From an uncultured bacterium (GTDB taxonomy: Bacteria > Patescibacteria > JAEDAM01 > Absconditabacterales > Absconditicoccaceae), in the NCBI GenBank assembly GCA_903904545.1, contig CAIVDB010000057.1, positions 1 to 5,848 of the forward strand: DNA of 5,848 nucleotides. Direction: 5' to 3'. Shown here piece after piece: positions 331 through 5,301 of the stretch. The position numbers and the translations under genes were made by a program. Position 1 is the stretch's first letter, and each line of letters starts with the position of its first letter. The notes under the pieces were generated by a model. That model was given only the letters and a program-made list of their open reading frames with translations, did not search any database and was not told the origin of the DNA.

Positions 331-338
331 TTTTATCT
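331..338 (+). promoter_or_regulatory. T-rich pre-start box of gyrA
   Basis: TTTTATCT lies 14 bases before the gyrA ATG. No purine-rich Shine-Dalgarno sequence is present. The same octamer or a close variant stands 12-14 bases before all four genes of the window, so it may be a translation-initiation element in the mRNA leader. The role is inferred from position only. Confidence 0.45.
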
Positions 339-352
339 AATAATCTTTTTTG

Positions 353-2926
353 ATGGCAGAAATTACCCCACTTATTGGTGGAACAATCATTCATCGTCCT
401 ATACAAGATGAAATATCTCAGTCGTATATAGAATATGCCATGTCGGTCATTGTGTCTCGTGCCTTGCCAGATACAAGAGATGGATTGAAGCCAGTATTGA
501 GAAGAATCTTGTTTGGTATGTACCAAATGAATAACTTCTTCAATCAGAAGCACAAAAAGTCGGCAAGAATTGTCTGAGAGGTCATGGGAAAGTATCATCC
601 ACATGGAGATAGTAGTATCTATGATGCTATGGTGCGTATGGCACAACCTCGGTCTATGAGATACCCTCTTATTGATGGTCAAGGTAACTTTGGATCTATC
701 GATGGAGATAGCGCAGCGGCGATGAGGTATACCGAAGCCAGACTTACAAAACTTTCAGAGGAAATGCTTTCTGATATCGAACAAGATACCGTAGATCGAA
801 GAGACAACTTTGATGGATCACTTAGAGAACCTATTATGCTTCCTACGAGATTCCCAAATCACTTGTGTAATGGTACTATGGGTATCGCTGTAGGTATGGC
901 AACCAATATGGCTCCACATAATCTTGTTGAAGTATTGGATGCATCACTTTTGCTTTTGGAAAAAGAAGGAAAATTGGATAAAGATGGTATCCCCCATCAA
1001 GTAAGTGTAGATGATATTATGGAAATTATCAAAGGACCTGATTTCCCAACAGGAGGATTTATCTATGATTCCAATAATATTAGAGAAGTGTATAGAAAGG
1101 GAAAAGGAGGAATCGTAACGAGAGGAAAAACTCATGTAGAAAATGGAAAACATGGAAGTGTAATTGTGATAGACGAAATCCCCTATCTTGTAAATAAATC
1201 TAGTTTAGTAGCGAAGATTGCTGAACTTATCGTCGATAAGAAGATAGAAGGAGTGACTGATATGAGAGATGAATCAAGTAAAAATATTATTAGAATTGCT
1301 ATGTATTTGAGAGCGGGAATAGATTCAGATAAAATTTTGGCAGAACTTTATAAATACACTGAACTTCAGACAAACTTTAATGTAAATAATGTTACCTTAG
1401 TAGAGGCTGGTACTCAACCGAGAACATTGAATATCAAAGATTTGGTTCGAGAATATGTAGTCTTTAGAAGAGATGTCGTATATCGTAGATCAGTATTCCA
1501 ACTCGCTAAGGCAAAAGATAGATTGCATATTTTAGAAGGATTGAAGAAAGCTATCGATGTGATCGATGAAGTAATTGATACCATCAAGAAATCTGGAACT
1601 AAGGTAGAGGCAAAAGAAAATCTGATGGCTAAATTTGAATTTAGTGATATGCAGGCTGAATATATTTTGATGATGAGATTGCAATCGCTTGTTGGTTTGG
1701 AAATCCAGAAGATTGCTGATGAAATAGAAGAAAAGAAGAAATTGATCGAGTATCTAGAAGGTATCATCAATGATCCACTCAAATTAGATCAAGTCATCAA
1801 GGATGATTTCATCTATATCAAGAAACAATATGGTGATGAAAGAAAAACACTTCTTTCTCAAGATCTCAGTGTCTATAATATCGCTGGAAGTCTCAAGGCA
1901 TTCAAAGATGCGGCAGACAAGGTCAAGGAAGATGTGATTGTCCGAGTAGGAAATGATTATAGTATCAAAGTCCTCTATCAGACAAGGATTCTAGCTATTC
2001 CTGAAGAAACTATGGATCTTATCTATACGCATAATCAAGATAAGCTTATCGTGATTACTGATATAGGAGAACTTGTGGTACAGAGGCTCAAGGAATTTGG
2101 TGTATTTGTGATGAAACAAAATTCTATCAATCTCAAAGAGCATTTTGGACTCAAAGGTAAGGTTATCTTTGCTAAAACACTTCACTTTGATTATCATCAT
2201 TTAGTATTCCTTACTAATCAAAATAGTATTAAGAAAATCAATAAGGAACTTGTACTTTCCTTCAAGAAATTCCCAACCGTTATCATGAAACTCGCACTCA
2301 AGGAGAAAATAGTCTCTGTAGAGGCAGTAAATGATACCGACAATATTGGAATCATTACTCAGCAGTGATGGATGTTGCTCTTCAAGAGTAGCGATCTCAG
2401 ACCAATGGGAAAGACTGCAGGATGAGTCAAAGCAATAGAATTGCAAGAAGGAGATGAAGTGACTTATATGTTCCTTCATAAGGAAGAGCCATTTATCTTA
2501 GTCCATGGAAATAAGGATGGAAAACTCTTGAGTCTAGAGGATTTGAAACTTTGGAAGAGAGCAAGAAAGGGACAGGTAGTAATGACAGGAAAGGATACTT
2601 TGGAATGAGCAATAAGTATCATCGAATGAGCAATTAGAATTAGATTTAAGGATACTACGATCAAGACACTTCATTCTAATGATATTCACTTGGATGAACC
2701 AGAAACTCCATTGTCTAAGATGGTTGATCAGAATATTGATGTCATCTATAGACCATGGGAAGAGAAAGAAGAAAATTTGAAATATAAAGAAGATAGAAAG
2801 AAAGCAGAAAAAGAAGCTGATCTTCTCGAAAAGGCAGCTCATCTAGATACTTCGTCTGAGGCTGTGGCAGAGGAAACGCCGGAGGCTGAAGAAATAGAAG
2901 ACACAGAAGAAGCTACTGAAGAATAA
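353..2926 (+). CDS. gyrA: DNA gyrase subunit A (code 25, TGA = Gly)
   Basis: This is the A subunit of DNA gyrase, the type IIA topoisomerase that works with GyrB to introduce negative supercoils. The product is 857 residues, near the family's usual size. Residues 36-47 hold the RALPDTRDGLKP motif. The KYHPHGD region follows, then AAMRYTEARL with the DNA-cleaving tyrosine Y126. The coiled-coil tower covers about 374-480. The C-terminal DNA-wrapping domain covers about 525-780 and includes DLRPMGKTA. A charged, Glu-rich tail follows (780-857). Quinolone-contact positions keep Ser87 and Asp91 (E. coli S83 and D87). ATG 353 is chosen because a TAA stands upstream in frame at 341-343; the TTG at 350 is less likely. 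Five in-frame TGA codons (575, 2366, 2423, 2606, 2627) encode Gly75, 672, 691, 752 and 759; Gly75, in RIVGEVMGKYHP, is invariant in the family. Oddities are Arg where AQPxSMRYP normally has an aromatic residue, and a degenerate GyrA box (near HFGLKGK). ParC is the alternative name if a second paralogue exists. Transcription comes from the promoter at 292-319 and ends at 2934-2967. Confidence 0.97.
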
Positions 2927-2933
2927 TATAAGG

Positions 2934-2967
2934 AAACGGCACTGATCTGATTGGTGTCGTTTTTTTT
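2934..2967 (+). terminator. Rho-independent terminator of gyrA
   Basis: Eight bases after the gyrA stop, AAACGGCACT (2934-2943) pairs with GGTGTCGTTT (2953-2962) to form a 10-bp stem that includes two G-U pairs. The loop has nine bases, and a run of eight T (2960-2967) overlaps the end of the stem. This is a standard intrinsic terminator and separates gyrA from the next unit, whose -35 element begins two bases later. Confidence 0.88.
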
Positions 2968-2968
2968 A

Positions 2969-2996
2969 TTGAAATAATGTTGTGCTTTCGTATGAT
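2969..2996 (+). promoter_or_regulatory. Promoter of the DUF1015-protease unit
   Basis: TTGAAA at 2969-2974 (5 of 6 consensus) and TATGAT at 2991-2996 (5 of 6) are separated by 16 bases. The start codon at 3030 lies 33 bases past the -10, the same distance as in gyrA. Its place directly after a terminator supports a new transcription unit. Confidence 0.7.
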
Positions 2997-3007
2997 GTGG
3001 CTGTCTA

Positions 3008-3015
3008 TTTTATTT
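3008..3015 (+). promoter_or_regulatory. T-rich pre-start box of the DUF1015 gene
   Basis: TTTTATTT lies 14 bases before the ATG at 3030, exactly the spacing of the gyrA box. The leader between is almost all T, with no Shine-Dalgarno sequence. Function inferred from recurrence. Confidence 0.4.
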
Positions 3016-3029
3016 CTTTTTTTTGTGTA

Positions 3030-4379: not shown

Positions 4380-4387
4380 TTTTATCC
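4380..4387 (+). promoter_or_regulatory. T-rich pre-start box of the protease gene
   Basis: TTTTATCC lies 12 bases before ATG 4400, in the 20-base gap after the DUF1015 stop. No Shine-Dalgarno sequence fits in this gap. Finding the box inside a likely operon suggests a translational rather than a promoter role. Confidence 0.4.
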
Positions 4388-4399
4388 TATCTATTTCTT

Positions 4400-5080
4400 A
4401 TGCATAAAAGGCACTGGCTATTTTTCTGTGGTTTTGCTTTGCTTGTTAGTTTGATCTTTTTTCTTATTCATTTTTTTTCTTTACCAAAAGGGGCTATGCA
4501 GCCATCTCCTCCTCATTTGCCTTCTCCTCTTTCTGGAAATATAAACTATATCGGTCGTCTTATCGTTTATTCCTGAACAGATAATTCTTCTTCAGCAATT
4601 ACTTTGTGAGGATGACGTGTGTTTCTTATTCATTCTGGTTGATATGCGATTACCAATGCGCATGTGCTTTATGGACTGATGAATTATTATGAAGTCTCTT
4701 TTTCTGGAGAAAGAAAAATCCCTGTACGTCATATTTGGCTACATGAGACCTTAGATCTCGCACTTTTGCAGCTTTCTGGTCTTTACGAGGATTTTGATCA
4801 GTTTTCACTTCCTTCACTAGGACATAGGTCTTTTTCTATTGGAGATGTTGCTTTCTGACCTACTTTATCTGGAGAATTGTTTACTGGGAAGATTGTTACT
4901 GTTTCAGGCATGATCGTGATAGACGTTCCTGTTCCTTTTGGAACAAGTGGTTCTCCTGTTTGGGATCTTTCCTGATTTGTCTTGTGAATATTTTCTGCTA
5001 CGGCATCTGCCTCTGCATATATTCTTCCCATTACTGATTCATTTGTTCGTTCTTGGCTGCTTTCTCTCGGGATTATTTAA
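4400..5080 (+). CDS. Membrane-anchored trypsin-like serine protease
   Basis: The product is 226 residues. Two basic residues are followed by a hydrophobic segment (about 6-27), which acts as an uncleaved anchor or a signal peptide, so the enzyme should act outside the cytoplasmic membrane. The rest is one trypsin/HtrA-type (S1 clan PA) domain with a full triad: His88 in AITNAHVL, Asp119 in DLALLQL and Ser183 in GTSGSPVWD. There is no PDZ domain, and at 226 residues it is much shorter than typical HtrA/DegP proteins. The nucleophile motif is GTSGSP rather than the usual GNSGGP. Seven TGA codons (4574, 4607, 4613, 4640, 4856, 4973, 4985) encode Gly59, 70, 72, 81, 153, 192 and 196. Gly81 aligns with the glycine before the His motif of HtrA proteins, and Gly192 and Gly196 with the DGxVVGI glycines after the catalytic serine. 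ATG 4400 is preferred to the internal ATG at 4495 because only it includes the membrane segment. Substrate is unknown. Confidence 0.86.
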
Positions 5081-5127
5081 TGTTTTATTCTCTTGGTAGC
5101 TAGATATTTTTATGTAAAATCTTATGT

Positions 5128-5173
5128 ATTGTTCCTGTTGATTCTGATCAAAATAACAATTATCCCTTTTTTT
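5128..5173 (+). terminator. Possible terminator of the DUF1015-protease unit
   Basis: ATTGTT (5128-5133) pairs with AACAAT (5155-5160). Inside it, TTGAT (5138-5142) pairs with ATCAA (5147-5151) around a TCTG tetraloop. Seven T follow at 5167-5173 after a six-base gap. The stem is AT-rich and interrupted, and the T run is displaced, so this is a weak intrinsic terminator at best. Confidence 0.35.
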
Positions 5174-5248
5174 CTTGTTTTATCTCTTATTCTATATAAT
5201 TATTCTCTCAAAAGTAAACTTCTAAATTCGTCTGTAGGGGTCTAAAAT

Positions 5249-5276
5249 TTGAATTTCATCCTTTTTGGGGTACACT
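5249..5276 (+). promoter_or_regulatory. Promoter of the TPR protein gene
   Basis: TTGAAT (5249-5254) and TACACT (5271-5276), each 4 of 6 to consensus, are separated by 16 bases. The ATG is 38 bases beyond the -10. The match is weaker than for the other two promoters, but the geometry is the same and it sits in a 234-base spacer where a new unit is expected. Confidence 0.5.
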
Positions 5277-5293
5277 TGATGATGTATATGTTA

Positions 5294-5301
5294 TTTTATC
5301 T
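5294..5301 (+). promoter_or_regulatory. T-rich pre-start box of the TPR gene
   Basis: TTTTATCT, identical to the gyrA box, lies 13 bases before ATG 5315. No Shine-Dalgarno sequence is present. Confidence 0.42.

Follow-up and report, generated by a model that had tools for sequence, protein, structure and literature searches.

The stretch of DNA analyzed here (the window) is the first 5,848 nucleotides (nt) of contig CAIVDB010000057.1 (forward strand) of an uncultured bacterium of the Absconditicoccaceae in the Patescibacteria (assembly GCA_903904545.1), and the element under study is a T-rich box located shortly upstream of each of its gene starts, a candidate site of translation initiation. 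The four open reading frames (ORFs) of the window stay open over their full length only when TGA is read as glycine (genetic code 25), and each gives a Pfam match above cut-off (Table 1). The closest gyrA relatives found include SR1/Absconditabacteria records, among them the complete chromosome RAAC1_SR1_1 (G001), together with others, and the best segment reaches up to 83% identity. The window is placed among relatives of SR1 (Absconditabacteria), in which TGA encodes glycine. The genome-scale tests were all run on relatives, the window's own genome and 16S rRNA lying outside the sample.

The first-pass annotation, made from the letters of the window, had described a T-rich octamer before every start and no Shine-Dalgarno (SD) site. 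Both observations hold: the box precedes all four ATGs at a spacing of 14, 14, 12, and 13 nt, and the words GGAG, GAGG, AGGA, AAGG, GGAA, and GGGG are absent from the 20 nt before each of them. The box of the trypsin-like gene directly follows the DUF1015 stop codon and is operon-internal, the gene lying 20 nt behind its upstream neighbor, and the TPR gene has a second TTTA at -14. An in-frame TTG at 350 adjoins the gyrA ATG (window positions 350 to 355), and the distance from the box to a TTG start would be 11 nt. The octamer itself was over-specified as the unit. The pattern TTTTATYY occurs nine times on the two strands of the window versus 3.46 expected (3 of 200 shuffles reach nine), and five of the nine occurrences lie elsewhere than at these four starts. 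The octamer was rejected as too narrow, and the conserved unit is a UUUA core in a U/A-rich setting at a fixed place. The -10-like hexamers in Table 1 lie upstream of three of the boxes, and the scan listed none just before the operon-internal third gene. The window contains 23 such matches versus 22.3 from shuffles, and single consensus matches therefore mean little.

Table 1. Genes, boxes, and -10-like hexamers of the window (distances are relative to the ATG)
Feature	Position	Strand	Remarks
gyrA ORF	353..2926	+	code 25; Pfam match
DUF1015 ORF	3030..4379	+	code 25; Pfam match; stop codon 4377-4379
Trypsin-like peptidase ORF	4400..5080	+	code 25; Pfam match
TPR ORF	5315..5848	+	code 25; Pfam match; runs past window end
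Box TTTTATCT before gyrA	331..338	+	14 nt before ATG 353; TTTA core at -21
Box TTTTATTT before DUF1015 gene	3008..3015	+	14 nt before ATG 3030; TTTA core at -21
Box TTTTATCC before trypsin-like gene	4380..4387	+	12 nt before ATG 4400; TTTA core at -19
Box TTTTATCT before TPR gene	5294..5301	+	13 nt before ATG 5315; TTTA core at -20
-10-like hexamer TATACT	314..319	+	TTGCAA at 292; upstream of gyrA box; consensus match only
-10-like hexamer TATGAT	2991..2996	+	TTGAAA at 2969; upstream of DUF1015 box; consensus match only
Possible -10-like hexamer TACACT	5271..5276	+	upstream of TPR box; found by eye, not in scan list

Gene starts were called without annotation as the first ATG of the longest nonoverlapping ORFs of at least 120 amino acids (aa), and some of these starts are wrong. 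This yielded 1110 genes from 11 code-25 sets, namely, 10 genomes and one set made of the window with eight kin loci (L002 to L009), with five G143 contigs under 3 kb left out of the gene counts. Loci L001 and L010 to L016 served for gyrA starts only (L007, in which the gene start is cut, was left out there), and L017 to L028 were unused. For G001, 20 stretches of 20 kb at even spacing supplied 243 genes. The word TTTTAT is most frequent at -27 to -19 in these genes, and the same peak is found in the 143 genes of G008. Across the 11 sets, TTTTAT occupies these positions in 5 to 25% of the genes per set versus 0 to 5% in the control window (17 to 25% in seven sets, 15% in G104, 9% in G129, 7% in G156, and 5% in G134). 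The core TTTA at -27 to -18 is raised in every set, with 39 to 81% versus 3 to 23% in control windows, so that the positional peak expected from the four starts of the window is found in relatives as well. The peak is narrow: TTTA begins at -22, -21, and -20 in 122, 145, and 119 of the 1110 genes, respectively, compared with a mean of 13.7 per position at -45 to -29. A smaller shoulder at -17 to -14 (42 to 50 genes per position) may reflect a second contact or wrongly called starts; the TPR gene of the window has TTTA at both positions. Among gyrA orthologs, TTTA at -27 to -18 precedes 15 of the 15 readable starts and is found in none of the 15 at -47 to -38, while the rest of the leader differs.

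Chance is excluded at the genome scale by two controls in G001, where TTTTA at -27 to -19 precedes 95 of 243 starts, a mean of 29.8 (standard deviation, 4.1) in 50 dinucleotide shuffles, and only 30 of 1680 internal in-frame ATGs. Enrichment over composition-matched controls is strong in most sets, although for TTTTA this part of the earlier expectation is weakly borne out in G134 (6/80 versus 4.6), G129 (11/76 versus 8.0), and G104 (19/78 versus 13.0). The enrichment is also specific as to the word. TTTA is 3.85-fold and TTTT 2.19-fold enriched, TTTC (0.56) and TTTG (0.55) are depleted, and the A-rich words AAAA (0.57), AAAT (0.77), and TAAA (0.97) are not enriched. These values bear on the possibility that nothing recognizes the box specifically, selection for AU-rich leaders serving no purpose beyond an open start region. 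The code-25 sets are indeed AT-rich (GC, 0.22 to 0.43), and weak structure is described as accompanying non-SD starts in other bacteria (PMC5397173, PMC6847099). However, selection for open structure predicts neither unenriched A-rich words, nor the depletion of TTTC and TTTG, nor a TTTA peak about three bases wide, and we regard this explanation as improbable.

A second alternative is that the box is a -10-like promoter element of transcripts with very short leaders, in which case its fixed distance to the ATG would be the distance from the -10 element to a transcription start immediately ahead of the gene. The box is T/A-rich, and PMC5397173 summarizes a link, in other phyla, between leaderless transcripts and an AT-rich bias at about -20 to -10. 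The -10-like word TATANT also rises at -20 to -17, the position of the box, in both divergent (7.8%) and operon (6.9%) genes. Against a promoter stands the frequency of the box inside operons. In nine sets (954 of the 1110 genes; G134 and G129 left out), TTTTAT at -27 to -19 precedes 14/76, 26/102, and 42/159 genes with a same-strand upstream gap of 13 to 25, 26 to 60, and 61 to 150 nt, respectively, and 56/286 divergent genes. The number of TTTA hits per gene in the bins -30 to -21 and -20 to -11 is likewise 0.55 and 0.45 in operon genes (n = 211) and 0.54 and 0.36 in divergent genes (n = 232); these bins left out G134, G129, G156, and G104, which the later TATANT analysis put back. In four ribosomal-protein regions, a few ORFs of which are not ribosomal, TTTA precedes 68 of 75 majority-strand ORFs (18/21, 19/20, 19/20, and 12/14 by region) versus 11 of 75 in the control window. 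There, an ORF that we take to be bS17 overlaps one that we take to be uL29 by 20 nt and has its own box inside the uL29 ORF (TTTTATCTC in G001 and G102; TTTTAACTC in G003). This pair is an example rather than a proof, as coding constraint could keep the letters.

Divergent genes have, in addition, a separate -10-like signal further upstream. TATANT at -48 to -33 reaches 4.7 to 7.8% per 4 nt in 322 divergent genes versus 0.7 to 2.9% in 277 operon genes, and -35/-10 pairs with the -10 hexamer at -45 to -36 are found at 6.8% and 9.3% in divergent genes versus 1.1% and 3.2% in operon genes. Lying upstream of the box, these signals lend indirect support to its transcription in divergent genes, which are predicted to have leaders of some 25 to 35 nt, with the box near the 5' end. 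A sigma-70-type -10 element is expected before the first genes of transcripts and absent inside operons, a distribution that the box does not follow. The operon genes and the separate upstream rise led us to reject the promoter explanation, which now appears very unlikely, and the suggestion of the first-pass annotation that the box is not simply a promoter is upheld by its equal frequency before operon-internal and divergent genes.

On the side of the ribosome, 16S rRNA tails were read in 29 genomes of the order of G001 (29 of 49 genomes matched), in 30 genomes of a class sample (45 of 60 matched), and in 28 of a phylum sample (47 of 59 matched; 29 loci examined). The 3' end of the 16S rRNA, to which attention had been drawn from the window alone, has lost the anti-Shine-Dalgarno (anti-SD) core CCTCC in 28 of the 29 tails of the order, and only G147 keeps it. 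The common SR1 tail reads AGACCACCAYYCTA where GGATCACCTCCTTTCT is expected, and intermediates such as CTCTC and CTTTC occur. CCTCC is kept in 24 of the 28 phylum-sample tails and 16 of the 30 class-sample tails. The phylum tails at L085, L086, L100, and L101 are without CCTCC (for example, GGAACACTTAAACAAG and GGATCAATTCCAATT) and are possibly separate losses. SD words at -16 to -7 are not enriched in the 11 code-25 sets (0 to 6% versus 0 to 4% in control windows), the sole set above its control being G008 (6% versus 3%). They are found before 1 to 4% of the genes in four code-11 members of the class and 16 to 30% in three outgroups. The four code-11 members are without the box, with a weaker signal in G089 (TTTA, 0.32 versus 0.14). 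SD use has thus been lost more widely than the box occurs; among the genomes sampled, the presence of the box follows code 25 and does not strictly follow the loss of the anti-SD. In the code-11 genome G096 (L192 to L196), which has CCUCC without SD enrichment, TATAAT at -32 to -24 and ACAAAA at -17 to -9 were observed, perhaps another SD-less style nearer to the A-rich one.

A third alternative is that the box recognizes 16S rRNA through a novel, shifted SD-like pairing. UAAA, which could pair with UUUA, is present in the first 18 nt of the tail in 8 of 29 genomes (including G001 and G008), and GGAUAGA at the junction of helix 45 and the tail would pair with UUUAUUU through wobbles, a match that passes in all 26 aligned 16S sequences. 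UAAA is missing from the other 21 of the 29 tails, however, including those of the nearest kin of the window, which carry the same box. The junction match depends on several G-U pairs, part of it falls within helix 45, and several sites in the 16S body pass the same loose test. A wobble scan of tail and body found no consistent partner among the relatives, so pairing with 16S was rejected, and we consider it the most remote of the explanations weighed here.

Collectively, the operon-internal boxes, the missing anti-SD, and the positional peak favor an mRNA ribosome-recruitment element over a promoter, as had been proposed for the window, and from sequence comparison we estimate a probability of roughly 0.78 that the box is such a translation-initiation element. 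We propose that a UUUA core, usually (U)UUUA(U), with its first base about 21 nt before the AUG, marks most of the sampled gene starts and works where SD pairing no longer can, i.e., with a 16S rRNA without CCUCC and mRNAs without SD motifs. A protein at the mRNA exit of the 30S subunit probably grips the mRNA and positions the AUG close to the P site; such a protein is proposed because the box lies approximately where the mRNA leaves the small subunit. On this reading the mRNA would carry the box, and ribosomes would use it through bS1 or, alternatively, through another exit-site protein.

Ribosomal protein bS1 is the first candidate because the Escherichia coli S1 meets the mRNA at about the same place as -21, and we give it about an even chance of being the reader, by analogy the likeliest one. 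Known bS1 relatives prefer U-rich RNA. The traits of an S1-type U/AU-rich element, a U/A-rich stretch at about -20 and an encoded bS1, are both present. The 436-aa bS1 ORF of G001 has three Pfam S1 stretches and aligns to residues 20 to 348 of a solved bS1, and the best NCBIfam bS1 models match it at an E value of 4e-77, yet below their cut-offs. The leaders of the bS1 ORF at L251, L250, L242, and L253 share the word AACGTTTTAT close to the ATG, and those at L251, L250, and L242 have a further T-rich box upstream; the leader is a possible site for bS1 control of its own synthesis. The protein bS21 (PF01165) gave no match in 12 of 12 code-25 genomes, compared with one match (below cut-off) in four code-11 members of the class and three (one below cut-off) in three SD-using outgroups. 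bS21 was rejected as the cause, and the pattern is a correlation only, since 8 of 14 well-known control genomes also have no PF01165 match.

Several observations weigh against a recruitment element of this kind. All 19 genomes searched have S1 domains, whether or not they carry the box, so S1 does not track it. The box is present in G147, which keeps CCUCC, and in G104, which has AUCUCC. Since these two genomes already use it, the box may be older than the last loss of the anti-SD. TTTTAT is rarer at tight gaps (4/46 genes overlapping the upstream gene and 8/59 at 1 to 12 nt), perhaps because the box must then fit inside coding sequence. In G001, 76 of 243 genes (about 31%) have no TTTA at the called start. 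On the supporting side, TTTA precedes an in-frame ATG within 50 codons in 28 of these 76, versus a background of 6 of 167 box-bearing genes, and the corresponding numbers in G008 are 8/37 and 9/106 (codons 2 to 50 were counted for the test and codons 11 to 60 for the background). Free motif discovery also failed in several sets. A simple expectation-maximization search was tried on 9 of 18 sets. G001, the kin set, and G129 yielded a motif with TTTA, whereas the motifs of G102, G134, and G156 (code 25) and of G096, G088, and G057 (code 11) were different or indistinct.

That SR1 has lost both SD and anti-SD has been published before. A survey of SD-scarce organisms without CCUCC includes two SR1 genomes, RAAC1 (2% SD) and another (7% SD); it counted the mRNA region from -20, its SR1 section names no replacement signal, and the terms "U-rich" and "T-rich" are absent from its main text (PMC10783764). 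In the E. coli system outlined in PMC5397173, S1 contacts the mRNA at a point about 11 nt 5' of the SD. The S1-dependent U/AU-rich enhancers described there resemble the box in their U/A-rich composition and in their location before the start, approximately at the place of S1 contact, and bS1 is encoded here too. The known enhancers assist or precede an SD, whereas here SD and anti-SD are gone and a defined UUUA stands at a fixed distance before most sampled genes, with S1 binding being putative. Lim et al. listed 15 genomes without an anti-SD, from Proteobacteria, Flavobacteria, and Mycoplasma, in which CCUCC and SD were lost together as here, but for Flavobacteria they named A-rich leaders and not UUUA (PMC3522020). 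Bacteroidetes-type starts, as presented in PMC6847099, are also SD-less and favor certain upstream bases, in a region presumed to adjoin S1; they differ in favoring adenines at -14 to -11, -6, and -3 and in keeping the anti-SD, in contrast to U3A at -21 with the anti-SD lost. The A frequency in G001 (0.50 at -11, 0.47 at -10, and 0.44 at -3 versus about 0.40 further upstream) is mildly raised at best. No report of a UUUA replacement box was found in the open literature, which is weak evidence, as subscription papers and preprints were outside the search.

How starts are marked without SD is an open question, and in the present lineage the state of the rRNA excludes classical pairing, while most sampled genes are preceded by a defined signal at a fixed position. 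The finding makes protein-guided start selection testable. It is conceivable, although we advance this only tentatively, that in code-25 Patescibacteria the choice of starts has passed entirely from rRNA-mRNA pairing to a sequence-specific UUUA site that is read by protein and held by a dedicated pocket of the small subunit, formed by bS1 in an adapted version or by a different exit-site protein. The steps of anti-SD decay (CCUCC, CUCUC, CUUUC, and CAYYC) are visible within one order, and the box offers a usable criterion when gene starts are annotated in genomes of SR1 and related code-25 bacteria.

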